64,000 nt of DNA from Candidatus Binatia bacterium. GTDB lineage: Bacteria; Desulfobacterota; Binatia; HRBIN30. A model generated the notes under the pieces. That model worked only from the letters and a program-made list of their open reading frames with translations. It made no database searches and was not told where the DNA came from. The stretch covers positions 62,001-126,000 of the forward strand of contig JAOAHD010000007.1 in assembly GCA_026415395.1 (NCBI GenBank). Direction: 5' to 3'. A program made the position numbers and the translations under genes. This document shows, in pieces, positions 400 through 34,235 of this stretch (positions are counted from its first letter, which is position 1; every line of letters begins with the position of its first letter).

Positions 400-1336
400 G
401 GCGAGCCTCCAGCGGCTGGAAAGAGCTGGTCGCGCAAGCTCTGTCGATCGGTCGCCTGGATGGGATGATCTCTCCGCAAGGCCTGCCAGCTCTTAATTTC
501 CGCCGTGCCCCCACCCCACGGTGCGCTTGGCTGAGACGCCGTAAGCAGTCAGCATCTCCTCAATAGCTTTCAGCAGTGGGGGGCAACAGTTCCTTGGGTT
601 CCGGTGCGGCTTTCATTCCTGGCCAGGGGGCGTACAGCAAACGAAGCGCGCCTTTTGCGCCCTCCTCCTATCCATCTTGGCCCGCAGGCCGGGGCCGACG
701 GCCGGGCACAACCTCGTAATAAATCGGCTGCCTACCCGTCCGATGGCTGCGGTCGTGCGGGTTGATCACCTCGAAGTCGATCTTGTCGAACCACGTCGGG
801 TGAAAGACTAGGGCGCCATGTTTGAAGTCGTTCCTGTCACCGTACTCGCTGCCGAAGAGGTGCAGGATCCAGGCAGGGTCGGTCCAGTCGTCGAAGCGCT
901 TGCCTTGTGCCAAGTGTTCCCGCAGTCGTGCCTGCATGCGGCAAGCCCAGCATAGCATCCCCTTCCAGCTTGCTGCGGACATGTACGGCAAGCCGAACAC
1001 GCGATCCTTGCGCACGGGATTGTCGAGCACGTGGAAGATTCGGTCGTCCTTCGAGTACCAGTGTGTGAGCAGCTCGAACTCGGCCTCGAGAGCGAGCCAC
1101 GTGCTATGGAGGACCTGCGGTGGCCACCGGTCGAGTTGGAGATCGGCTGGGAGGCAGAGCGTTTTTTGAGCCGCTGGTTTGACGTAAGAGTTGCGGGCCT
1201 AGTTCTTCTGGCTGTTGCCTTTAGTGCTCCAGACCGCGCAGCCGTCCACGAAGCCCCAAGCGAGACCGGAGTGAAGCGGTCCGTCCGTGGGGCAGGCCTA
1301 AATAGACGCGAGGTCGGCGTAGAAGTCGAACGTCAT
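396..1336 (-). pseudogene. RAMP-superfamily type III CRISPR subunit, decayed (three in-frame TAG, two frameshifts)
   Basis: Starts at ATG 1336, overlapping the stop of the cmr1-like gene (ATGA), and ends at TGA 396-398, overlapping csx11. The intact core (668-1030) reads KDRVFGLPYMSAASWKGML, then LHLFGSEYG, FEVINPHDR and PIYYEVVP, which I recognise as a Cmr-type RAMP. TAG codons in frame lie at 1298-1300, 1199-1201 and 668-670. Near the 3' end a six-C run on the coding strand (578-583) and a five-G run (508-512) each shift the frame by one. Removing one base from each restores LLKAIEEMLTAYG, AKRTVGWG (RAMP glycine-rich loop region) and a continuous frame to the overlapping stop, 313 codons in all. 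That exact restoration shows the family length and operon structure were ancestral and that inactivation is secondary. The backbone subunit number (Cmr4/6-like) cannot be assigned. Confidence 0.72.
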
Positions 1337-2283
1337 GGTTTGTCCCCTCCCCCGCCCGCGAGAATACGCTCCCGGATGGCAGCGCCCGTAAGAAACTCCT
1401 CATCCTTCAGATTTGGCCAAACATCCTTCAATCGCTGACGCATCTCTTCCAGCGTGAGTGAGTCAGGGTATACAAAGCCGAACGCGCGGCGGGCGGTTTC
1501 GGGCTCCTTGAAGCTGAACACCTTGTTGCCCTCCGAAGGCTCCGGGTCGGCCCCTCTGCGTGCGTGCCGTCCGGCTAGCCACGAATCCCCGTGGTGTGAA
1601 TTTTGCTTTTTCTCTGGCCTGGCGATGATGCGGTTAAAGATGCTCGTTTTCGCATCCTGACGCGCAAGATAACGCCCTCTGACGCACCAAAAGTCCCCCA
1701 GCGATGCCCAGGCAAAGCCGTCGAGAGCTGGACTGTGCCAGCGTTGTTGGCGGACTTAACCCTGCAGTAGCTCCCGGTGGCAGGACCACAGGTCTTCCGG
1801 AAAGTCCGAGATGTTTATCAGCCCGTAATCGCGGTGATGAGCAGCGTTGGTGCGGCTCACTTCATTGCTCGGTTTGAGCACCGTCTTCCCGCCGAGTGCA
1901 CCGTACTCGGCGACGAAACGCAACGTCAGGTCGAGCAGGGCCCACTCCTCGCGAGCCATCGGGCGGAGCTCGGTGAAACGTAGGGTGAACGTGTCGCCTT
2001 GCTTGATCCGCGCGGCTTTGACCCGCCTGCTTTCGTTGAGAACCTCCAAGCGAAACTTCCGCGCCCAGCCGGTGCAGCCGAACAGCTCGCAGACGACGCA
2101 ATGCGAGTTACGCTGAGACTGGCGGCCTGTGGGGTCGCACGCCGTTCCGCCTAATCCGCGTACCAGCACTTCGAACCACCACCGGATGGATCCGAGCAGG
2201 CCGGTCGTAATTGTGCGATCTCCGCGTCGGTCGGCGTCACCGGTCCAAACGTCGGTGCGGGCTTCGAGGATGTAGTCGCTCAT
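1333..2283 (-). pseudogene. cmr1-like: Cmr1-like RAMP protein, interrupted by in-frame TAA
   Basis: A 317-codon frame from ATG 2283 to TGA 1333, broken once by TAA at 1756-1758. Before the stop it carries Cmr1-type features: WTGDADRRG near the N-terminus, GLLGSIRWWFEVLVRGLGG and ACDPTGRQ, a CVVCELFGCTGWARKF segment, and GGKTVLKPS. After the stop the same frame continues as FAWASLGDFWC, GRYLARQDAKTSIFNRIIA and SLTLEEMRQRLKDVWPNL up to the overlapping ATG of the next RAMP gene. CAA to TAA would restore it. A better ribosome site (GGAGGG, 2306-2311) precedes an earlier in-frame ATG at 2301, but codon 4 from that ATG is TAG (2290-2292), so even the start appears damaged. In Cmr complexes Cmr1 caps the crRNA 3' side. 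Here only a 175-residue fragment could be made. Confidence 0.7.
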
Positions 2284-2301
2284 ACTTGTCTACTCGGTCA
2301 T

Positions 2302-2928
2302 CGTTCCCTCCAAGGGTTCCACAACGGTAGTTCCTCTGGCTCCTACGACGTTCGTGCATTGAACGCACCGGTGCTGGCAATGCATCCCGGCCACCACCGC
2401 TGCCCCGTGCCTTTTCGCTGTGCGGAAGTAAATGTCCGTGCTGTGGGACCAACAGAATTCCCTTACGGTCTTGTGTGGATAACCGTTTGATCTGCAAGCA
2501 GTGCTCAAAATTCTCATGCTGTCAAATCATGGCGGGAGATTCCTGCCGACATGCCGGTTCCGTTGCGCGCCGCCGGCGGTACCACGGTGCAGGAGTGTGC
2601 TCGGCGGAGCGGCAACCTTACCTGCTGTTGCCCTTTACCCCGCCAGACAAGAGAGCGTCGTGTCTCCTGGGCGGACGCGGTCAAAAATTACAACTCGTAG
2701 AGCGATATTTAATGCGGTTGCCACCGCTGAGGATGGGTGTGGCATTAGCTGCGGTTGAGGGATGCTCGGGTGGGCAGTGCGGGTTAGGCAAGAGGGCAGC
2801 GAGCGGTAGGGGAAGAGGTAAGTTGACTAACGGCCTCCAGCTCGTGGACTGTGAGTCTCGGTTGCATTCGGAGATGCCCTTATGCAATCGCTCGGAAATC
2901 AATCTCTTGCCGGGACAGGAGTCCGCAC
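2302..2928. other. Gene-free stretch between the cas operon and the TMTC-like gene
   Basis: No convincing gene. The reading frame upstream of the cmr1-like gene is open on the minus strand to 2517 but lacks any recognisable domain. The stretch separates two divergent transcription units, so promoters for both should lie here. It carries one perfect DnaA box (2474-2482). No CRISPR repeat is visible. Confidence 0.5.
2474..2482 (-). promoter_or_regulatory. Perfect DnaA-box 9-mer
   Basis: TGTGGATAA on the plus strand, TTATCCACA on the minus strand, an exact match to the DnaA consensus. It stands alone: I saw no second good box between 2300 and 2930. It lies 2.2 kb from parB in an origin-proximal type neighbourhood, so it may be a remnant or outlier of the origin, or chance. 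Confidence 0.3.
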
Positions 2929-4647
2929 TTGGCAACGCCACGGAGGCAAAAGCCTCATTCGCGCAAAAACCGCCAGGCAGTCCGCGAAACCTCGCATGCT
3001 CAGGAGCCTACTCCGTTAACGCCTGCCGGTCAGCCTTCAGCTTCGGAGCGAAGCCGAGCTTGGCCGTGGCTATTTGTGCTTTTGGCTTTGGTGCTCGTGG
3101 CCTACTGGCCGGCGCTCGGCGGCGATTTCGTCCGTTGGGACGACCAGTTTTACGTGTTTGAGAACGAACTCCTTCGCGAGCCCTCCGGTTGGAAGGCGTT
3201 TTGGAACCCGACGGAGCGGCGGACACCACAATTCTATCCCTTGGTGTTTTCCAGCTACTGGCTCGAGTACCGCCTCTGGGGGCTCGATGCGCGCGGCTAC
3301 CATGCGGTAAACGCGGCGCTACATGCTGCCAACACGGCGCTGGCATTTTGCCTCGTCCGGCAGTGGGGTTTCGCTACTGTCACCGCATTTTCTGCCGCAG
3401 CCGTGTTTGCCCTGCACCCGGTACAAGTTGCTTCCGTGGCCTGGATTTCCGAGCGGAAAAATGTTCTCAGCGGATTTTTCTTGCTGCTGGCGTTCACGAG
3501 CTACTGGCGGGCGGAACGGCGTCGGCCAGGATGGTATGTGGCGAGCTTTGCGAGTTTTGTGGCAAGCCTCCTGAGCAAGACGCAGGGAGTCGCGCTGCCC
3601 CTGTCGTTTCTTATTGCCGAGTGGGCTGCGGCTCGTTGCCGCGGCCGGCGCGTTGCGTGGTCTTTCTGGCGCGATGGCGTGCTGTACCTGTTGCCGTTCT
3701 TTGCCGCGAGTGCTGTCATGGCGCTGATTACCGTCCACTTCGAGCATGACCGCTGGCCACCGTTGCCGTACACAGGGGCAGAGCGATTCCTGATCGCGAC
3801 CAACGCCTTGCTGTCTTATCTACGCACCATCCTGTGGCCCGCGGATTTATCGCCGATTTATCCGAAATGGGAATTATCGACCGACAATCTCGGCTGGTGG
3901 TTAGCTCCGGTAGGCTTGTCGCTGGCGTTGGCGGCCTTGTGGTTGTGGCGGAACCGCGTGCCACCGTGGATGTGGTGGGGCCTCGTTCACTTTTGCCTTG
4001 GCCTCCTACCTGTGCTCGGCATCGTTCCTTTCAACTTCTTTACGTACGCGTTCGTTGCCGACCACTTCCTCTATTTGTCCATGCTCGGCGCCGGGGTGGC
4101 TCTTGCGGTCGCCCTGCAAGCCGCAAGGACATGGTACCGAACAGGGGTTCGCGTGGTTGCTCTCGGTCTCGCGGTAGGGCTGGCGATTCTATCGTGGCAC
4201 GAGGCATGGCATTGGCGCGACAATCTCTCCTTTTGGCTGCACGTGCGCGAGCGGGATCCGCGCGGGTTTCTTGCCAATTTCAACTTGGGGTTGCACTTCC
4301 GCCGCGAAGGCCGTTGGGAGGACGCTGCTCGCTACTTTCGGCTGGCGGCTGAGGCACGGCCCGAGGCGGACTTTCCGTTTCGGCGTTACGCCGAGGCGCT
4401 GCGCTTGGCGCGGGGTGAGCAGGCAGTGATCGAAATGGCCACGGCCTGGCTGGGAAGGGCCCCGAACTTCGCCCCTGGCTATCTCGAGCGCGGGATCTCC
4501 CAGGAGCGAAGCGGAGAGAAGGAACAGGCGCTCAGCGATTACGAGCGCGCGCGCCGCCTGGCCCCCCTGGGGAGTTCGGTCGCTGCCGAGGCGCAGCAAC
4601 GACTCCTGGACCTCCGCGCGCGCAGCGGCTCCGCGACTGGCCCGTGA
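2929..4647 (+). CDS. TMTC-like polytopic membrane protein with C-terminal TPR repeats
   Basis: I chose TTG 2929 because AGGAG (2917-2921) sits 7 bases upstream. The frame is open further back to GTG 2851. The 572-residue product has a basic cytoplasmic N-terminus, a first membrane helix at about residues 45-63 and then an acidic pair in FVRWDDQFYV, as in GT-C glycosyltransferases. It also has the TMTC/DUF1736-like stretch HPVQVASVAWISERKNVLSG and roughly ten hydrophobic segments. The last 150 residues form about three TPR units (NFNLGLHFRREGRWEDAARY onward). TMTC-like bacterial proteins are thought to transfer sugars from lipid carriers to exported proteins. The exact donor and acceptor are unknown. 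It is transcribed alone, towards parB (convergent). Confidence 0.7.
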   Translation: MATPRRQKPHSRKNRQAVRETSHAQEPTPLTPAGQPSASERSRAWPWLFVLLALVLVAYWPALGGDFVRWDDQFYVFENELLREPSGWKAFWNPTERRTPQFYPLVFSSYWLEYRLWGLDARGYHAVNAALHAANTALAFCLVRQWGFATVTAFSAAAVFALHPVQVASVAWISERKNVLSGFFLLLAFTSYWRAERRRPGWYVASFASFVASLLSKTQGVALPLSFLIAEWAAARCRGRRVAWSFWRDGVLYLLPFFAASAVMALITVHFEHDRWPPLPYTGAERFLIATNALLSYLRTILWPADLSPIYPKWELSTDNLGWWLAPVGLSLALAALWLWRNRVPPWMWWGLVHFCLGLLPVLGIVPFNFFTYAFVADHFLYLSMLGAGVALAVALQAARTWYRTGVRVVALGLAVGLAILSWHEAWHWRDNLSFWLHVRERDPRGFLANFNLGLHFRREGRWEDAARYFRLAAEARPEADFPFRRYAEALRLARGEQAVIEMATAWLGRAPNFAPGYLERGISQERSGEKEQALSDYERARRLAPLGSSVAAEAQQRLLDLRARSGSATGP

Positions 4648-7294: not shown

Positions 7295-9167
7295 CGCCAG
7301 CCCTTCGTAGGTGTACGGACAGCAGTGCTAATGCGGCCGGTGTGAGGCCGGGTACCCGCGCCGCTTGGCCCAACGAGCGCGGGCGCACGCGCGAGAGTTT
7401 TTCTTGAACCTCGCGGGAAAGACCGGGGATCGTGGTGAAATCCAGGTCCGCCGGGATGGGTGTTTCCTCCATTTTACGCAGTCGCTCGATTTGTTCCTCT
7501 TGGCGACGCACGTACCCGGCGTACTTGATGTCAACCTCTACTTGAGCGACCGCGTCCGGTGGAAGTTCCGCAAGGGGCGGCGCGAGTTGGCACACGGATT
7601 CGTAGGACAACTCTGGGCGCCGGAGCAGTTGGGCAAGGGTTGTCGGATTGACGATTTCCGCCGTTCCCAAAGCCCGCAATCGCTCATTGGTCTCCCGTGT
7701 GGGGTAAAGGATCGTTTGTTCCAGTCGCTCGATCTCGCGCTCCACGGCACAGCGCTTCGCTTCCACGCGCCGCCACTCCTCGTCGCCCACCACGCCAATG
7801 TCCCGGCCGAGAGGCGCGAGTCGCGTGTCGGCATTGTCCTCGCGCAGAAGCAAACGGTACTCGGCCCGCGAGGTAAACATCCGGTAGGGCTCGCCGCCAA
7901 CGCCTTTCGTTACAAGGTCATCGACGAGAACGCCCATATAAGCCTGGTTCCGGCGCAACACGAACGGTTCCCGACCCTGCACTTTCAATGCGGCGTTGAT
8001 CCCGGCCAAGAGTCCTTGGGCGGCTGCTTCCTCGTAGCCCGTCGTCCCGTTGATTTGTCCGGCATGAAACAGGCCCTGAATCAGTTTCGTCTCCAACCAC
8101 GGGAAGAGCTGAGTTGGATCGACGAAATCGTATTCAATGGCATACCCTGGGCGCATGATTCTGGCCTCCTCGAGGCCGGGGATCGAACGCACCATGGCTA
8201 ATTGTACGTCGAGCGGGAGACTCGTGGAGAGTCCGTTCGGGTAGATTTCCACCGTGTCTCGCCCCTCAGGCTCGAGAAAAATTTGATGCCGCTCCTTGTC
8301 GGCAAAACGCACAACCTTGTCCTCAATCGAAGGACAATACCGGGGCCCTCGTCCACGGATTTGGCCTGAAAACAGGGGTGAACGGTGGAGCGCCCCACGA
8401 ATGATTTCATGCGTGCGCGCAGTCGTGTAGGTGATGAAACAAGGCACCTGTGGCTGGGTGATGGCTGTCGTGGAGAAGGAAAAAGGCTTGGGGGGATCGT
8501 CCCCGTACTGCGGTTCGAGGCGGGAAAAATCAATCGTGCGGCGATCGAGCCGGGGGCAAGTGCCGGTCTTTAGACGTCCTACAGTGAAGCCCAACGAAGC
8601 GAGCTGCTCGCTTAAGCCATGAGCCGCAAAGTCCCCCGCCCGGCCTGCGGACATCTGCCGCTCTCCCACGTGAATAAGGCCATTGAGGAATGTTCCCGTG
8701 GTAAGCACTACGGTTCGGCCCTCGATTTGCTCACCCATTTGCGTTTGCACACCGACCACGCTGCTTCCGTGCAACAACAACCGCTCCACGCTGGCCTGGT
8801 ACAGCGTGAGCCCAGGAGTATTTTCCAGGCGGGCTTTCATGCGTTGCCGGTACGAGGCCTTGTCAGCCTGTGCCCGTGAGGCGCGGACCGCTGGGCCCTT
8901 TTTGGTGTTGAGCTGGCGGAATTGAATTCCGGTCTCGTCGATCGCCTTAGCCATCTCCCCACCGAGGGCGTCGATCTCTTTCACTAAATGGCCTTTGCCA
9001 ATGCCGCCGATGGCTGGGTTGCAGGACATCTGGCCGATGTGGTCGAGATTGAGCGTCAGCAAAAGCACATCCGCCCCCAAACGCACCGCTGCGAGCGCAG
9101 CTTCGATGCCAGCGTGGCCTGCGCCGACGACGATGACATCAAAGGTACGGTCAAACGGACCCATCAT
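7287..9167 (-). CDS. mnmG: tRNA uridine-5-carboxymethylaminomethyl modification enzyme MnmG (GidA)
   Basis: 626 residues, full length. With MnmE it installs the cmnm5 group on U34 of certain tRNAs, using FAD and methylene-THF. The N-terminal FAD dinucleotide fold is [20 protein letters not shown], followed by the GidA signatures [20 protein letters not shown] and [15 protein letters not shown]. Near the C-terminus [13 protein letters not shown] and [16 protein letters not shown] match the second signature, and a helical tRNA/MnmE-binding tail follows. AGGAG precedes the start. A parS site (9182-9197) lies just upstream in the leader. No mnmE is visible in the window. Confidence 0.96.
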
Positions 9168-9181
9168 TGAACTCCTGCGCT

Positions 9182-9197
9182 TGTTTCACGTGAAACA
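9182..9197. promoter_or_regulatory. parS: parS centromere site 2
   Basis: Second exact TGTTTCACGTGAAACA, 2.74 kb from the first. It sits 15 bases upstream of the mnmG start, immediately before the AGGAG ribosome site, so ParB occupancy could affect mnmG expression. Two sites in one cluster make this the likely centromere region of the chromosome. Confidence 0.95.
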
Positions 9198-9304
9198 GTG
9201 CCGGCCGCAATTAGCGTAGGAACCAAGGCGAGGAAAGAAGCGATGAAACCGTGCAGTCGCGTTGTGGCGTGGATGAAATGCAAGCAGGAACGGAGTGTGC
9301 CCCG

Positions 9305-10003
9305 CTATTTGCCCTGTCTCCTCTGTTCATGTTTCCGCCGAATGAGGCGCTCCGCTAGCCGCAGCAGGATTTCTAAATCCTCCGCATCCAGCTCGGCGAC
9401 GGCGTGTAACAAGAGCTCCAGGGCACGATATGCGCGTTCCTCGGAGCGCAGGCTTCCGCGCAAGCGCTTCCAGAGCATCAGAATGTCGTCGTAACTCAAG
9501 GGCTTCCATGGACGACGCGAAAAAGCCGCATCCTGGGGGGGCTCATGCCAATAGAAGAATGTGCCGGGTTTCAAAGCTTCGCCCCCAGTATCTGGCTTTC
9601 CCAGGGGGCTGCGCCCTGGAAGGTACATCGGCTTGCCGTAGCGCTCCAAAGGCCACTCCTCGGGTGTACGCCGGACCGTATACGGCTTGCCTTCCCGGAC
9701 GCCTCCGACCTGCCGCCGCGGTAACTCCTCCACTCGCCGCAGCAAGTCGCTCGGCAACATCCCCATTGCGGCTGCCAGCTTCGCCAAGACGTCGCCGGAC
9801 GGCCTCTTGGCGCCGCGCTCGACCTCGCTCAGGTACGAGTAAGAAACGCCGGACTTCAGGGCCAAGTCCTGGCGCGTCATCCCACGCTCTTCTCGCAAGC
9901 GCTTAATCGCGGTCGCGTAATCTAAATGATCCTCGATCGCCCGCCGCTGATCGGGAAGTTCGCCGCTGAAGAAATGGCCTGGCGGCCCCTTGCTTTCGCC
10001 CAT
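9305..10003 (-). CDS. XRE-family transcriptional regulator with unusual C-terminal extension
   Basis: 232 residues. A helix-turn-helix of the XRE/Cro type covers about residues 28-82 (AIKRLREERGMTRQDLALKS, SYSYLSEVERGAKRPSGDVL). The remaining 150 residues match no domain I know. They hold a Pro/Gly-rich middle (RRTPEEWPLERYGKPMYLPG, FFYWHEPPQD) and a helical end (ELLLHAVAELDAEDLEILLR) closing in a basic tail. No ImmA-type protease follows. It diverges from the ARPP-1 gene with 82 bases between them, so it may repress itself and that gene. Its own start lacks a clear ribosome site. Confidence 0.75.
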   Translation of the reverse strand: MGESKGPPGHFFSGELPDQRRAIEDHLDYATAIKRLREERGMTRQDLALKSGVSYSYLSEVERGAKRPSGDVLAKLAAAMGMLPSDLLRRVEELPRRQVGGVREGKPYTVRRTPEEWPLERYGKPMYLPGRSPLGKPDTGGEALKPGTFFYWHEPPQDAAFSRRPWKPLSYDDILMLWKRLRGSLRSEERAYRALELLLHAVAELDAEDLEILLRLAERLIRRKHEQRRQGK

Positions 10004-10070
10004 GGCGTTACGCTAAAGAGTGCACGCTATCGCGCGCAACGGGTAGTTGTCGGGATAGTGAGCAACGGCC

Positions 10071-26952: not shown

Positions 26953-27459
26953 ATGAAGTGCGCCAGGCGTTGGAGCTCTACGAAGTGGGCAGCACGGTGC
27001 TTCCGGGAAGCCAGCGGTTACTCGTTGATCGAGCTGCTGACCGCGCTAGGTGTCGTATCTGTCGTTGCGGCCGTCAGTGTCCCGCAGCTTAGCGCGTATG
27101 CGGTCCGGTACCGGCTGAGCAGTGCAGCCAACCAGCTAGCAGTCGACCTCGCGCGTGCGCGCATGAAGGCCATCGGCGAGAACCTGTACGTTCGTGTCCA
27201 GTTTGGCGCGCAAAACATTGGCACCCTTGGATACGGCTCGACCTATCAACTGAGCACGAGCAATGATGGGGTAACGTTTACGAACGTTGGCCCCCCCACG
27301 TCGATACCTTCGGGTGTTTCGTTTTACGCCTCCCCGCAGACGGTCACCTTTAACCGGCAAGGTATGGCTGGTGGCCCGGTAACGGTGTGGGCATACAACC
27401 AAGCTTACCAGTGGCAGGTGATCACCATGAACTCCATCGGCAAGGTGTGGGTACAATGA
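26953..27459 (+). CDS. Minor pseudopilin, GspH/FimT type
   Basis: 168 residues. A basic leader ends in the type IV prepilin cleavage site SG-YSLIELLTALGV, with Glu at +5 of the mature protein, then a hydrophobic alpha1 helix (VVSVVAAVSVPQLSAYAVRY). The globular part, QLAVDLARARMKAIGENLYV then VRFNRQG-like TVTFNRQGMAGGPVTV, is the GspH/FimT pattern. It would be processed by PilD and placed at the tip of a type IV pilus or type II secretion pseudopilus. First of four overlapping prepilin genes (stop overlaps the next ATG). Confidence 0.88.
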   Translation: MKCARRWSSTKWAARCFREASGYSLIELLTALGVVSVVAAVSVPQLSAYAVRYRLSSAANQLAVDLARARMKAIGENLYVRVQFGAQNIGTLGYGSTYQLSTSNDGVTFTNVGPPTSIPSGVSFYASPQTVTFNRQGMAGGPVTVWAYNQAYQWQVITMNSIGKVWVQ

Positions 27460-27875
27460 ACAAGCTACGGTCCGCAGCCGGGATCAGTACCCTCGAGGTG
27501 GTGGTGGCGCTCGCGCTGTTTGCCATCACCGCTGCTGGTCTTGCCGCAACCACGATCAACGTCACGAATCAAACAGCGCGAAGCAAGATTGCCACTGCAG
27601 CAAATGCCCTGGTCGAAGACCTGATGGAGCAACTGCGCGCCTTAGATCCCGCTACAAAGCCGTGGCAGCTCCAGGCGGGCACCTACAATGACCCAAACAA
27701 CCCGATCACCGCTGGGGGAGTGAGCGGTGGTAAGTTTATGCGCTCTTGGACGGTAACGCCCGACACTCCGGGCTTGGGCCTCGCACGGGTGGAAGTGCGC
27801 GTGGTGTTTTCTGGCCCGGCAAATTTCACCGCTCTAGGGGTAACGTATCTATGTACCACGGCCACGTGCAGTTGA
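27456..27875 (+). CDS. Minor prepilin, PilV type
   Basis: 139 residues from ATG 27456 (ATGA overlap with the previous stop). The leader MNKLRSAAG is cut before ISTLEVVVALALFAITAAGL. Mature position 5 is Glu, as required for assembly. The remaining text (NALVEDLMEQLRALDPATKP, YNDPNNPITAGG, LARVEVRVVFSG) is the short PilV/GspI-like domain, and two Cys near the C-terminus (LCTTATC) could form a disulfide. It acts with the other minor pilins to prime pilus assembly. Confidence 0.85.
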   Translation: MNKLRSAAGISTLEVVVALALFAITAAGLAATTINVTNQTARSKIATAANALVEDLMEQLRALDPATKPWQLQAGTYNDPNNPITAGGVSGGKFMRSWTVTPDTPGLGLARVEVRVVFSGPANFTALGVTYLCTTATCS

Positions 27876-28513
27876 AGACCAGAACAGCGAGGATTCGCCA
27901 CAACCAGCGCGGATACTCCTTGGCCGATGCCCTGGTGGGGACTGTTTTGGGTCTTACGACGATGGCTGCGGTTCTTGGCCTCTACCGCGTGCAGTTGTAC
28001 GGCCTACGTGGCCAAACAGCTCAGCTCGATGTGCAAACCACGGCGAGGAACATTGTACAACTGGTGGTTAGCGAGATCCGGCGTGCTGGTGGTGACCCGC
28101 GGTGTGTCAAAACCTTCGAGGGGCTACCCGAAGCAAAGCGGGATCGACTGCGCATCGTGAGCGACCTCGACGGCTCCGGCGCAATCGACGCAGCCGGCGA
28201 GGACGTAACGTACAGCCTGGCCTCTGGCGTGCTGTCTCGCACCGCGGGCGGCAACATGGAACCGCTATCCGATAGCACGGTAAAGGTGACGGATTTGCAA
28301 TTTCGTTACTATGATGCGAACGGCACCGAGCTGAATCCGGGAACCAGCGGCTTGACGGCAACCCAGCGTGCTCAGGTGCAGCGCATTCGTGTGACGATCA
28401 CCGTGCAACGTGCTGCCGTGGATCCGACTAGCCCGCTTGCGCTCGCGGCAACTGCAGCGTCGAGCGCGGATTTGCGCAATCGGTTCTTCGTCAACAAGGT
28501 TGGCTGCACATGA
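27851..28513 (+). CDS. Minor prepilin, PilW type
   Basis: 220 residues from ATG 27851, inside the end of the PilV-type gene (25-base overlap). The leader is long and basic, then RG-YSLADALVGTVLGLTTMA. Mature +5 is Asp rather than Glu, a variation seen in minor pilins. NIVQLVVSEIRRAGGDPRC, DLDGSGAIDAAGEDVTYSL and DLQFRYYDANGTEL match PilW/GspJ-like proteins. It ends VNKVGCT with a Cys that may pair with Cys in GGDPRC. The stop overlaps the next ATG. Confidence 0.85.
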   Translation: MYHGHVQLKTRTARIRHNQRGYSLADALVGTVLGLTTMAAVLGLYRVQLYGLRGQTAQLDVQTTARNIVQLVVSEIRRAGGDPRCVKTFEGLPEAKRDRLRIVSDLDGSGAIDAAGEDVTYSLASGVLSRTAGGNMEPLSDSTVKVTDLQFRYYDANGTELNPGTSGLTATQRAQVQRIRVTITVQRAAVDPTSPLALAATAASSADLRNRFFVNKVGCT

Positions 28514-29673
28514 ATCCGCGATCGTGCTGCAAACAGGCTGAGTCTGGTTTTGCTTTGCCGAGCACTCTCATGCTGCTCCTGTTGCTGATGACCATGGGAG
28601 GGGCAGCGGCTTTGTACGCGGGCCTGGAATTCCGTGCCCTCAACCACTTTCAATCTGGCAATCAGGCTTTGCTCTCTGCCGAAGCCGGGGCGCTGCGCGC
28701 GGTGAACGTGATGAACCAAACAGGGGTGACCCACTTCGGCAATGACATTGTGGCTCGCTGGCACACGCTGTTTAACCCGAGCGTGCAATCGATCGCCGGC
28801 TACTCGCAGTTTACCTTCTCGGCCAGCGTGCAAGCAGACCCCGCAAACCCAGCCGACCGCGGCTGGATTACGGCTACAGGCTGGGCACCGTACAATGCCC
28901 GCCGCAGCGTGCGCATTGGCGTCAAACGCGGGCCGATCGGACGTGGCAGCGGTGCCATATACCTTGCTGCCGACAGTGTGAGCCCGAGCTTTTCCGGCAA
29001 CGCATTCGACATCGACGGCAATAACCACGATCCGTACGGTAACTTGCTGGCCGGCACGGTGGCGCCCGGGATTGCAACGCGGAATGATACCGTGACGAAC
29101 GCGGTAAAGTCAGCCCTGAACACGCAACAGAAGGATAACGTGCGGGGCTCAGAATTTTCCTTGAGCCCACTGAACCCAAGCGTGGTCACCACCGGCGGTC
29201 CCGATTGGCAAGATCTAAACCGTATCGTCAACCAGGTGTTGCAGGATCCACGAGTGGTGAGGAACAACAGCAGCCGGATCAACGGCAACGTAACCTTCGG
29301 CACCCTCGCTGCGCCGCAAATTACTTATTTGACGGCCTCGCAGGTGACCATTCACGCCAACGGCAATGCGTCGGGTGCGGGAATCTTAGTTGTCGACGGC
29401 TCTCTCACGATCAATGGGAACTTGAACTTCGTTGGCTGGATTATCGTCCGGGGAAGCACGGTAATCAGCGGCCCGAATTCTGACGACGAAACGACGGTTC
29501 TGGGCAACGCCACGGTGATGGGATCGCTTTGGACCGCCCATATGACCATTCGTGTCGGCGGCAGTGCGATTGTGAATTTTTGTGAGTCCTGCTTAAATAT
29601 GATCGTTCCACCAAGCGGCGGGGGCTACATGCCCAAGGCGATGATGATCACTTCCTGGCAAGAGGTACTGTAA
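28510..29673 (+). CDS. PilX-like minor pilin with C-terminal beta-solenoid-like region
   Basis: 387 residues, far longer than classical PilX. The N-terminus (AESGFALPSTLMLLLLLMTM then GGAALYAGLEFRALNHFQSG) is a prepilin-like anchor of the PilX type, where FALP replaces FTLIE. Residues about 150-210 form a linker with Asn/Asp-rich text (DIDGNNHDPYGNLLAG). From about 250 on, short strand repeats appear: SSRINGNVTFGTLA, QVTIHANGNASGAGILVVDG, SLTINGNLNFVGWIIVRGST, TTVLGNATVMGSLWTAHMTI. These resemble a beta-solenoid or bactofilin-like coil. It may expose a binding tip on the pilus. CESC near the end could form a disulfide. Confidence 0.75.
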   Translation: MNPRSCCKQAESGFALPSTLMLLLLLMTMGGAAALYAGLEFRALNHFQSGNQALLSAEAGALRAVNVMNQTGVTHFGNDIVARWHTLFNPSVQSIAGYSQFTFSASVQADPANPADRGWITATGWAPYNARRSVRIGVKRGPIGRGSGAIYLAADSVSPSFSGNAFDIDGNNHDPYGNLLAGTVAPGIATRNDTVTNAVKSALNTQQKDNVRGSEFSLSPLNPSVVTTGGPDWQDLNRIVNQVLQDPRVVRNNSSRINGNVTFGTLAAPQITYLTASQVTIHANGNASGAGILVVDGSLTINGNLNFVGWIIVRGSTVISGPNSDDETTVLGNATVMGSLWTAHMTIRVGGSAIVNFCESCLNMIVPPSGGGYMPKAMMITSWQEVL

Positions 29674-31731: not shown

Positions 31732-32934
31732 TCACAACACGAGCACGATCGGCTGTTCGAGGGTGTGCTTCAAGTCTTCTAAAAAGCGGCCCGCTTCAAC
31801 ACCGTTCAGCACACGGTGATCGGCGGATAGCGTGACCCTCATGGTCTTGGCCACCGCGAGTTGGCCAGCGCGCACAACCGGGCGCTCCCGGATACTCCCC
31901 ACCGCCAAGATTGCCGATTGGGGCGGAGTGATCACCGCAGCGAAAGAGTCGATATCCAACATCCCCATGTTGGAGATCGTAAACGTGGCACCCACGAGCT
32001 CTGCTCCAGTGAATTTTCCCGCTTGTGCTTTTTCCACCAAACCTTGGGTCGCCTGCGCGATTTCGCGGAGACCCAGGTGTTGGCAGCGGTGGATCACCGG
32101 AGCCACGAGCCCGTCCTCCACCGCCACCGCGATCCCGATGTTGATATCCTCATGGACTTCCACCGTGCCATCTATCCAAGAGGCGTTTGCTCGAGGATGG
32201 CGTGGCAGCACGAGCGCGAGGGCACGAATTAGCAAGTGTGTGTAGGTGATGCGCTCTGGGAACACATTGGCGGCCAGAAGCTGCTCGCGGAGGCGCGCCG
32301 CTTCGGTCATGTCGATTTCCGAGGTCACGTAAAAATGCGGAATTTCCCGCTTGGATTGCGCCATTTGTTTGGCCACCGTTTGGCGCAACCGGCTCTCCGG
32401 GTGCCGCCCAGGATGGAGACCGCTTGTCGGCGCGAGCCGGGGCTTCCAGCGAAGGGACGACGGCGGCAGTGGTGGTGCCGGAGCTGGCGCGGGTGACTCG
32501 GCCGCCTCGGTTCGCGGCTGCGCCGCCCCGGTGCGTCGCTCCGGCGCTGGCTCGGCGGCCGGTCCCGCCGGTTTTGCCGCCGGTTTGGCGGCCGTTTTCC
32601 CTACTGCGGCAGCTTCCCCGCGTGGCGCTGCGGTCGGCTCGCGCACTGGCGGCGGAGCCGATTCGCGCGTCGGGGCTGCCGTCTGTACGCCAGCCTGCAC
32701 TTCTTCAAGAATGGCCAACACGGCGCCGACCGGTGCGCTTTCCCCTTCGGGCACGCGGATTTCCCGCACAATCCCGCTGGCCTCGGCCTCGACCTCCATA
32801 TCGGCCTTGTCGGTTTCCACTTCGGCAATGACCTCACCGCGCTGGACCATTTCCCCCACTCGCTTGTACCAGCGCAAAATGGTGCCCTCCTCCATGGTAT
32901 CGCTCAGCTTGGGCATGCGGATTTCAATCGCCAT
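31732..32934 (-). CDS. 2-oxoacid dehydrogenase E2-type acyltransferase, no E3/E1-binding domain
   Basis: 400 residues from ATG 32934, with GGAG just upstream. An N-terminal lipoyl domain (residues 1-78) includes VETDKADMEVEAEASG with the lipoylated Lys. An Ala/Pro-rich linker (about 80-165) follows. The peripheral subunit-binding domain usual between linker and catalytic core is absent: the text goes from KPRLAPTSGLHPGRHPESRL straight to RQTVAKQMAQSKREIPHFYV. The catalytic domain is complete, but the acyltransferase motif reads DHRVLNG, with Asn where HxxxD has Asp. No E1 or E3 genes are nearby. It may act without a standard complex, or use a different partner. Confidence 0.85.
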   Translation of the reverse strand: MAIEIRMPKLSDTMEEGTILRWYKRVGEMVQRGEVIAEVETDKADMEVEAEASGIVREIRVPEGESAPVGAVLAILEEVQAGVQTAAPTRESAPPPVREPTAAPRGEAAAVGKTAAKPAAKPAGPAAEPAPERRTGAAQPRTEAAESPAPAPAPPLPPSSLRWKPRLAPTSGLHPGRHPESRLRQTVAKQMAQSKREIPHFYVTSEIDMTEAARLREQLLAANVFPERITYTHLLIRALALVLPRHPRANASWIDGTVEVHEDINIGIAVAVEDGLVAPVIHRCQHLGLREIAQATQGLVEKAQAGKFTGAELVGATFTISNMGMLDIDSFAAVITPPQSAILAVGSIRERPVVRAGQLAVAKTMRVTLSADHRVLNGVEAGRFLEDLKHTLEQPIVLVL

Positions 32935-33056: not shown

Positions 33057-34235
33057 ATGTCTTGGCGAGTGTTGGTTTTCAACACCGGTTCCTCGAGTGT
33101 GAAGTTCGGGGTTTATCGTTGCAACGACGAGGTCGCGCTCGAGTACACGGGCGCGGTGTCCGGTCTCGATGGGCAGACCGAAGTGGAAATTTACGCCGCA
33201 GCCGCACGGTCACGCCACACTGTGGCGCTCGGCTGCCTCGGGAGCGAGGCGGCGATTCGTTGGGTGGCCAACTGGTATGCAGAACAATACGCGGGCGTTG
33301 CGCCTGTTGCCGTCGGCCATCGCGTGGTGCACGGAGGTCATCGCTTTTTCGCTGCGGCCGTGGTGACGCCTGCAGTGCGCGACGTCATCGCGGAGTTCTC
33401 TTGTTTTGCGCCGCTGCACCAACCACGCTGTGTCGAGGCCTTGGATCTTGCCCGCGAGCTTTGGCCGCAAGCCATCCAGGTGGCTTGCTTCGACACCGCC
33501 TTCCACGCGGCGCAGCCGCGCGTCGCGCGCTTATTCGCTTTGCCGCGGCGGTGGGCCGAAGCGGGCCTGATCCGCTACGGCTTTCATGGGCTTTCGTTCG
33601 CCTCTATCGTGCGGCAACTCGCTGAGCGCCAGCCAGAATTGCGCGAGCGCAAGTGGGTGGTGGCACATCTCGGGAGCGGCGTGAGCCTGTGCGCCATCGC
33701 GGATGGGCGCTCGGTCGCGACGACGATGGGGCTCACTCCACTCGACGGCGTGCCGATGTCGACTCGCTGCGGGAGCATCGATCCGGGCGTGCTCGTTTAC
33801 CTTCTCCGTCATGCGGAGCTGGACTTGGACGAGGTAGAGCACATGCTGTACTACGAGTCTGGCCTCAAGGGACTCTCGATGCTCTCCGGTGACATGCGCG
33901 AGCTCCTTGCCAGCGATGCCCGCGAAGCGCAGGAAGCAGTCGAATTGTTTGCTTACCGCGTGCAACGCGAAGTCGCATCCTTGGCTGGGGCTCTCCAGGG
34001 CCTCGACGTACTCGTGTTCACGGGGGGAATTGGCGAGCATTCACCCGTGATCCGGGAGCGGATTGCATCCGGACTGGAGTGGCTCGGGGTGAGGCTCGAT
34101 GCCGCGGCGAATCGGACCGGCAAAGCGTTGATCTCCCGTGCCGACAGTGGCGTGGCTGTGTGGGTTATTCCGAGCGACGAAAATGGCGAAATTGCCCGCG
34201 AGACCTATGCCCAACTGCGGGCGCTCGGAGGGTAA
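33057..34235 (+). CDS. ackA: Acetate kinase family protein
   Basis: 392 residues from ATG 33057. Interconverts acetate plus ATP with acetyl phosphate (or the propionate equivalents). Features: VLVFNTGSSSVKFGVYR at the N-terminus, VGHRVVHGGHRF, CFDTAFHAAQPRVARLFALP, RYGFHGLSF, AHLGSGVSLCAIADGRSVAT (usual form GNGAS), MSTRCGSIDPGVLVYLLR (usual TRSGDIDP) and VFTGGIGEHSP, then ENGEIARET with the conserved Glu. Small departures from the consensus suggest a divergent subfamily. No pta or phosphoketolase neighbour is present, so direction and partner are unknown. Confidence 0.9.
   Translation: MSWRVLVFNTGSSSVKFGVYRCNDEVALEYTGAVSGLDGQTEVEIYAAAARSRHTVALGCLGSEAAIRWVANWYAEQYAGVAPVAVGHRVVHGGHRFFAAAVVTPAVRDVIAEFSCFAPLHQPRCVEALDLARELWPQAIQVACFDTAFHAAQPRVARLFALPRRWAEAGLIRYGFHGLSFASIVRQLAERQPELRERKWVVAHLGSGVSLCAIADGRSVATTMGLTPLDGVPMSTRCGSIDPGVLVYLLRHAELDLDEVEHMLYYESGLKGLSMLSGDMRELLASDAREAQEAVELFAYRVQREVASLAGALQGLDVLVFTGGIGEHSPVIRERIASGLEWLGVRLDAAANRTGKALISRADSGVAVWVIPSDENGEIARETYAQLRALGG

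Follow-up and report, generated by a model that had tools for sequence, protein, structure and literature searches.

An E2 acyltransferase without a subunit-binding domain (PSBD) is encoded in the analysed window (i.e. the whole stretch of 64,000 nucleotides, G000:C7:62001-126000, from a genome of 3.69 Mb in 25 contigs, 95.8% complete), and we judge it slightly better than an even bet that this protein is the E2 of a pyruvate dehydrogenase system (E2p), in the HRbin30 family (Binatota), that lost its E1-E2 docking and has a single AceE as its partner. Both halves of the E1-E2 clasp, the PSBD of the E2 and the N-terminal arm of the E1, seem to have been lost, and this pattern (read from sequence comparisons) suggests a pyruvate dehydrogenase that runs without the usual tether. 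As the defining docking part was looked for in both the E2 and the E1 and found in neither, we set the system apart from ordinary pyruvate dehydrogenases. The genomes compared appear to be metagenome bins, and HRBin30 is described, in the available part of PMC8262859, as an order of Binatota from thermal settings.

Domain content of the E2 and its catalytic motif

The sequence-only reading had described an E2 with intact lipoyl and catalytic domains that lacks the subunit-binding domain between them, and this description held: both domains are matched in Pfam (E values in Table 1), and the PSBD (PF02817, E3_binding) gave no match in the window E2 even at E values up to 1, an absence common to relatives (see below). 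In the AlphaFold prediction the protein consists of two confident domains separated by a disordered stretch (residues ~81-170, block means of pLDDT 35-52, no helix), whereas the PSBD-bearing relative L005, modelled as a control by the same procedure and with the same 25 sequences, shows a confident PSBD at residues 181-220 (block means of pLDDT 94-95). A cryptic PSBD inside the linker is thus not supported, neither by a PF02817 match at E<=1 nor by a predicted fold, and with the domain absent here and in relatives the usual PSBD contact would be unusable for assembly. Foldseek searches with the window E2 led to E2 structures, and the closest solved structures by sequence are those of the mammalian pyruvate dehydrogenase E2p. 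The best E2p equivalog model (TIGR01349) scores the protein at 307.1 bits, below its cut-off of 445, for which the absent PSBD may partly account. Its closest relative is found in Bacterium HR30 (HRbin30; 75% identity in tblastn, 81% in global alignment), and many other matches in the same search come from Candidatus Binatia or Binatota.

Table 1. Position of the E2 gene and of its parts in the window.
Feature	Position	Strand	Basis
E2 acyltransferase CDS, PSBD-less pyruvate dehydrogenase type, 400 aa	31732..32934	-	Start ATG at 32934, last base of the stop codon at 31732
Lipoyl domain, residues 4-76, with its lipoyl-lysine motif ETDKADME (Lys43) preserved	32707..32925	-	PF00364, E 4.8e-21
Pro/Ala-rich linker, residues 77-177, PSBD position in relatives, none here	32404..32706	-	PF02817 absent, AlphaFold disorder
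WKPR tetrapeptide, linker residues 163-166	32437..32448	-	Found in 3 of 27 sequences, the E2s of the arm-less clade
Catalytic (2-oxoacid_dh) domain, residues 178-399	31738..32403	-	PF00198, E 1.8e-75; Foldseek matches to E2 cores
Catalytic motif DHRVLNG, Asn at the HxxxD position, residues 372-378	31801..31821	-	Sequence reading and alignment

The gene is flanked by an acetate kinase gene on the other strand and by a TPR/peptidase gene. Elsewhere in the window, a run of type IV prepilin-like genes was recognised by eye (26953-29673); of the three scanned against Pfam, one has GspH/N-methylation matches and two have no Pfam match.

The same reading had also singled out the catalytic motif, HRVLNG with Asn in place of Asp. 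The motif is present as read, but on comparison the Asn proved not to be odd. The DH of the motif is invariant in a 25-row alignment, as is Lys43 of the lipoyl domain; in the window E2 the catalytic His is present, the Asp preceding it is kept, and Asn377 stands four places after the His, a place at which an E2p bears Asp or Asn. Of the 50 tblastn loci, two (L050 and L051) are without a catalytic domain; the remaining 48 have a readable motif, which bears Asp in 46 and Asn in two, L004 and L012. In a wider set of 27 E2s, Asn was found in nine (window, L004, L012, L127, L138, L140, L142, L143 and L144), His in one (L145) and Asp in 17, and among the 11 E2s of this type that belong to the window's order Asn is the rule (nine, besides one with His and one, L137, with Asp). 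The PSBD is kept in four of the nine Asn-bearing E2s (L138, L140, L143 and L144). The solved core of the Azotobacter vinelandii E2p (1eaa, 1dpb-1dpd) belongs to an ordinary PSBD-bearing complex. Like the window E2, this enzyme has Asn at the HxxxD position (Asn614, four residues after His610; titles of entries 1dpb, 1dpc and 1dpd), and the available part of PMC8421416 speaks of its 'catalytic His and Asn'; the motif is thus proven to work in a component of a proven complex, albeit one that is not a close homologue. In the E. coli E2o, the Asp379Ala variant (Asp379 being matched to the window Asn by its numbering relative to His375) retains about 9.5% activity and Asp374Ala 2.1%, the Asp before the His weighing more than Asp379, as reported in the accessible part of PMC5986005. 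Since Asn is native in the Azotobacter E2p and the rule in the order, and since Asp379Ala is partly active, no special explanation is needed for it, and these points, together with the PSBD-bearing relatives that carry Asn, led us to discard it as a mark of altered chemistry. One PSBD-bearing E2 (L145, G024:C15) has His instead of Asp or Asn (HRILHG).

Distribution of the subunit-binding domain among relatives

The presence of the PSBD was scanned in 20 E2s of this type, comprising the window E2, 11 of the 50 tblastn loci and 8 of 20 further stretches (the others carry a different type of E2 or duplicate L012); L019 (with a run of N in its E2), L022, L030, L032, L044 and others were left out, as was a fragment at a contig edge in G025. 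The domain was present in 14 E2s and absent in six (window, L004, L012, L127, L142 and L015). Within the window's family the PSBD-less E2s (G000, G013/L004, G015/L012 and G014/L127) form one clade (support 96/91), and all four family members in which this E2 type was found are without the domain; in G014, what appear to be the first PSBD residues (ASPAARR) stand just before the catalytic domain. An independent loss is seen in G021 (L142), beside the PSBD-bearing E2 of G019 (L138; support 99/99). On the best tree L015 constitutes a third loss, but it sits on a long branch with the deep forks open, and the well-supported branches force only two changes.

Two further family members, G016 and G017, were found without an E2 of the window's type, and their AceE gene adjoins a different E2 (motif HRLIDG; L130 and L133) whose PSBD was confirmed. 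Their AceE branches apart from that of the family, which suggests a replacement by transfer.

The location of the gene has changed as well. In relatives such as L005, L007, L017, L018 and L021 (gene names from Pfam for L005 and from clustering for the other four) the E2 gene stands in a row of RNase HII, E2, Lpd, LipB and LipA. This row is retained by G018 within the window's order, and G019-G024 have RNase HII, E2, LipB and LipA with no Lpd between. In the window and in HRbin30 the E2 gene lies away from the lipB-lipA neighbourhood of the relatives, beside the acetate kinase gene. In the course of these comparisons we noted that the E2 of L144 (G023:C8, about 8724-10056) changes frame between its lipoyl part and its PSBD-catalytic part, through either a sequencing error or a real break. 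Furthermore, L020 (CAMBFS010000015.1), although titled Klebsiella pneumoniae, carries an E2 and a gene order like those of Binatota-like loci such as L018, and is probably a mislabelled metagenome bin.

Partners in the genome and the N-terminal arm of AceE

Searches of the genome G000 for 2-oxoacid dehydrogenase components recovered two E2 catalytic domains (PF00198), those of the window E2 and of SucB, and one PSBD (PF02817), that of SucB, so that no second PSBD-bearing adaptor was found by this model. Genes for E1 alpha and beta subunits of an acetoin-type or branched-chain complex were likewise not found in G000, where the only PF00676 protein is SucA and the two PF02779 proteins are transketolase and SucA. 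A search with the middle domain (PF17831) yielded a single AceE (C15:42561-43217), a full equivalog match (TIGR00759, 1336.9 bits against a cut-off of 859.9), which rules out an orphan E2 in a genome without any E1. SucA, SucB and an Lpd cluster together at C7 (sucA-sucB-lpd), and three further PF02852 proteins in G000 make another Lpd possible. The earlier statement that no E1 or E3 genes adjoin the E2 is thus true of the locus, where inspection of the neighbours found none, but misleading for the genome, which encodes an AceE-type E1p and an Lpd elsewhere. By elimination, the window E2 is the sole candidate partner for AceE in G000. As PFOR-like proteins (PF01855, two matches) are also encoded, the pyruvate dehydrogenase pathway may be a minor one in this genome. 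Across the 23 genomes searched, AceE was matched strongly in 17, weakly in three (E 1e-9 to 1e-11: G005, G006 and G011) and not at all in three (G003, G004 and G010). The weak matches (L163-L165, from G006, G005 and G011 respectively) are proteins of 833-842 aa with a weak, above-cut-off PDH_E1_M match, and represent a distant AceE-like family without an ordinary AceE match.

In E. coli, residues 1-45 of E1p are reported to contact the E2 and to be required for the activity of the complex, though reductive acetylation proceeds without them (Park 2004, as cited in the available part of PMC8146983), and NMR shows the N-terminal region of E1p to bind mainly the PSBD (PMC6270654, part available). 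This arm of about 45 residues is absent from four of 17 aligned AceEs (G000, G012, G013 and G015, i.e. the genome of the window, its two congeners and a member of one more genus) and present in the other 13. The alignment comprised 14 AceEs of the window's order, counting G000, plus those of G007-G009; the start Met was set manually for G007, G009, G012, G015, G018, G021 and G023, and for G018, whose AceE is broken in frame, only the N-terminal piece was aligned. In line with the shortening, the TIGR00759 match starts at model position 46 for the AceE of G000 and at position 5 for that of G014. An arm encoded just upstream of the shortened genes is not supported: in-frame stops precede the start Met by 11 codons in G000, 11 in G012 and one in G013 (the frame of G015 is open further upstream, with nothing arm-like there), and arm queries from G019, G023, G014 and E. 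coli gave only chance-level matches in the four arm-less regions of about 20 kb each (best E 0.048, none at the gene), while the same queries do find the arms of G014, G019 and G023. Moreover, each arm-less aceE (G000:C15/L166 at 8345, G012, G013 and G015) has a hexamer resembling a -10 element (TAGAAT/TACAAT) at a distance of 6-7 bases upstream of its ATG, as in leaderless genes, which also supports the shortened start. All 11 AceE positions checked, which we take to be catalytic or active-site residues, are conserved in G000. Among the other genomes, the AceE of L171 (G018:C4, about 768-3312) changes frame, through a sequencing error or a real break.

Both proteins are under strong purifying selection, as judged from codon comparisons between G000 and HRbin30. 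In the E2, pN amounts to 0.036 for the lipoyl domain, 0.052 for the catalytic domain and 0.403 for the linker, at a pS of 0.72-0.84 that is near or past saturation, and in AceE pN is 0.043 at a pS of 0.67. The low pN of the lipoyl and catalytic domains against a near-saturated pS shows the window E2 to be the product of neither chance nor decay. A pyruvate dehydrogenase in the course of being lost, its task taken over by PFOR, is for this reason hardly credible to us, even though the PFOR-like genes of G000, the altered gene neighbourhood and the lack of such an E2 in the assembly of G012 could be read that way; within the genus, AceE remains 92-93% identical and keeps its catalytic residues. 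The case of G012, a genus-mate with an arm-less AceE and no window-type E2 in its assembly, was discarded as evidence of loss, given that MutS2 and acetate kinase, which accompany the E2 in G000, are likewise absent from that assembly; the lack of the E2 in G012 is likely an assembly gap.

The sequence-only reading had also offered another acyl transfer role for the E2, away from pyruvate dehydrogenase, for which no positive support emerged. The departure of the gene from the lipB-lipA neighbourhood, in the window and in HRbin30, to a place beside acetate kinase might hint at such a role, for instance together with that kinase. We nevertheless regard it as very unlikely: AceE would then be left without an E2 in G000, and the divergent acetate kinase gene (window 33057-34235) evolves faster than the E2 gene (pN 0.236 against 0.129 in the same genomes). 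In G014 and G015 the nearest acetate kinase lies on a different contig than the E2, and a functional link drawn from the adjacency in G000 and HRbin30 was rejected on this ground. No enzyme that would carry acyl groups from an E2 to acetate kinase or back is known to us.

Probable order of the losses and possible modes of assembly

The states of both the PSBD and the arm are known for 16 genomes (G012 is left out, and G003 is without AceE). Of the five PSBD-less genomes, three have no arm (G000, G013 and G015), G014 has a strongly diverged one and G021 one that is near-normal; all 11 PSBD-bearing genomes possess the arm, including G016 and G017 with another E2 beside their AceE. In the AceE tree the arm-less proteins group into a single clade with G014 as its sister; the SH-aLRT support of this clade, 93, falls slightly short of the program's mark of 95. 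Since G014 is without the PSBD but has a diverged arm, the PSBD would have been lost first and the arm later. The arm of G014 shares 27% identity with those of PSBD-bearing genomes, for which the mean among themselves is 47-54% at equal core identity; this divergence (-3.5 sd) is only somewhat beyond that of the PSBD-bearing G016 (-2.1 sd; G021 and G017 deviate by -1.25 and -1.0 sd). One Arg of the arm, invariant in nine PSBD-bearing genomes, is lost in G014 and G021. As the arm was lost once on the tree, the co-loss counts as one event, and as PSBD-less lineages make up about 24% of the branch length of the AceE tree (tips of E. coli and G018 excluded), an arm loss would fall in a PSBD-less lineage by chance about one time in four. 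Furthermore, the two losses are not strictly coupled, since G021 keeps a near-normal arm without a PSBD; the PSBD-less L015 is silent on the matter, with no AceE detected in its genome (G003).

On these grounds we propose that the E2p lost its PSBD in the ancestor of those family members that hold this E2, and that a later branch, made up of the window's genus and the genus g3, went on to lose the N-terminal arm of its E1p, with which the E. coli enzyme contacts the PSBD. Free E1p dimers would then decarboxylate pyruvate and acetylate the lipoyl domains by collision, the lipoyl domains swinging on the Pro/Ala linker of about 100 residues that joins them to the E2 core. The core would make acetyl-CoA, with Asn377 standing where the Azotobacter E2p has Asn614, and the dihydrolipoyl groups would be re-oxidised by an Lpd. 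The simplest candidate is the one from the sucA-sucB-lpd cluster, to which the PSBD of SucB might give a hold. That the E1 and the E2 have no tether at all, the lipoyl domain meeting E1 and E3 by free collision or through a new short linker motif, is a proposition on which we stand evenly divided. Such a mode is chemically plausible, as the arm is reportedly dispensable for reductive acetylation, and if it holds the lineage would display a graded series, from an intact pair through a PSBD-less E2 with a diverging E1 arm to the loss of both.

The main rival to an untethered enzyme is a re-wired docking, in which E1p and E2p assemble through a new contact that replaces the PSBD and the arm and might involve the E2 core, a different surface of E1 or a motif in the linker, WKPR for example; we hold this to be possible, though rather doubtful. 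A partner recruited through the core, as the sequence-only reading had suggested, may exist, but the arm by which an E1 normally achieves such recruitment has gone as well. A precedent exists in the eukaryotic oxoglutarate dehydrogenase with MRPS36/KGD4, where, according to the accessible part of PMC9974300, the PSBD of E2o is replaced by a disordered Pro/Ala stretch, as in the window E2, and MRPS36 is proposed to bring the E3. That system differs from the present one in being an E2o rather than an E2p, in keeping the N-terminus of its E1o and in its proposed adaptor, as PF02817 matched nothing but SucB in G000. The human E1o was likewise reported to bind the core and linker of E2o (PMC8146983, part available), but the binding part is the N-terminal region of E1, which is the region gone here. 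The tetrapeptide WKPR occurs in the linkers of exactly three E2s, those of the arm-less clade, and in none of 24 other sequences (n=27, last 460 residues searched), and is the sole candidate contact motif, a weak one: it amounts to four residues in three sequences, it has no AlphaFold structure, and it may be due to chance or be part of the N-terminal elbow of the catalytic domain.

A further explanation is that of an ordinary E2p with harmless drift, in which the Asn and the missing PSBD mean little and E1 and E3 collide with it well enough. For the Asn this agrees with what was found in Azotobacter and across the order. For the PSBD, its retention in most of the scanned E2s and its occurrence in the E2p of all three kingdoms (PMC9974300, available part, in which the known PSBD-less E2 is the eukaryotic E2o) argue otherwise, and the loss of the matching arm in E1 exceeds drift in a single protein; we therefore consider this explanation unlikely.

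The untethered reading, which we prefer, is best seen against the system of E. coli (AceE-AceF-Lpd). The two share the lipoyl and catalytic domains of the E2, an Lpd in the genome and a homodimeric E1p of the AceE type, whose identity amounts to 55.9% across 841 aligned residues. They differ in docking, which in E. coli joins the N-terminal residues of E1p to the PSBD of E2p (both absent here), in the number of lipoyl domains (one in the window E2, three in the E. coli E2) and in gene order, with the genes scattered in G000 and united in one aceE-aceF-lpd row in E. coli. With the OdhA-AceF hybrid of Corynebacterium and Mycobacterium the system would have in common an E3 that serves both pyruvate and oxoglutarate dehydrogenases and, possibly, a functional mixing of the two; however, OdhA is an E1-E2 fusion that relies on the lipoyl groups of E2p (PMC8146983, part available), and SucA, SucB and E2p are separate in G000.

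A literature search on PSBD loss in E2s, with most subscription papers outside its scope, found no description of a bacterial PSBD-less E2p in the parts of the papers available: PMC6718150 presents a crystal without a visible E3-binding domain, PMC3570535 matches by the gene name psbD only, and PMC9958957, PMC10161378 and PMC6300248 have plants and picocyanobacteria as their subjects. A search for Binatota together with pyruvate dehydrogenase, of the same scope, found no paper that joins the two, and the word 'pyruvate' does not occur in the available part of PMC8262859, on Binatota. To what extent a 2-oxoacid dehydrogenase depends on its swinging, tethered architecture has long been asked, and engineered truncations have served to address it. 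A lineage in which first the PSBD and then the arm were deleted, with the catalytic parts kept under constraint, would be a natural experiment on substrate channelling, for which intermediates (G014 and G021) and related tethered controls (G019 and G023) are available.

A different arrangement was observed in three Ardenticatenia/Anaerolineae bins (L024, 5938-9035; L036, 5880-9057; L046, 5949-9040), where genes for E1 alpha and beta are followed by one for a stand-alone lipoyl protein of 85 aa and one for a separate, catalytic-only and PSBD-less E2 of ~250 aa. In L024, Pfam further identifies within this row an FGGY kinase along with a periplasmic sugar-binding protein and a sugar-binding regulator, and L036 and L046 share these clusters; the fully split E2 of the three loci apparently belongs to a sugar or polyol pathway.
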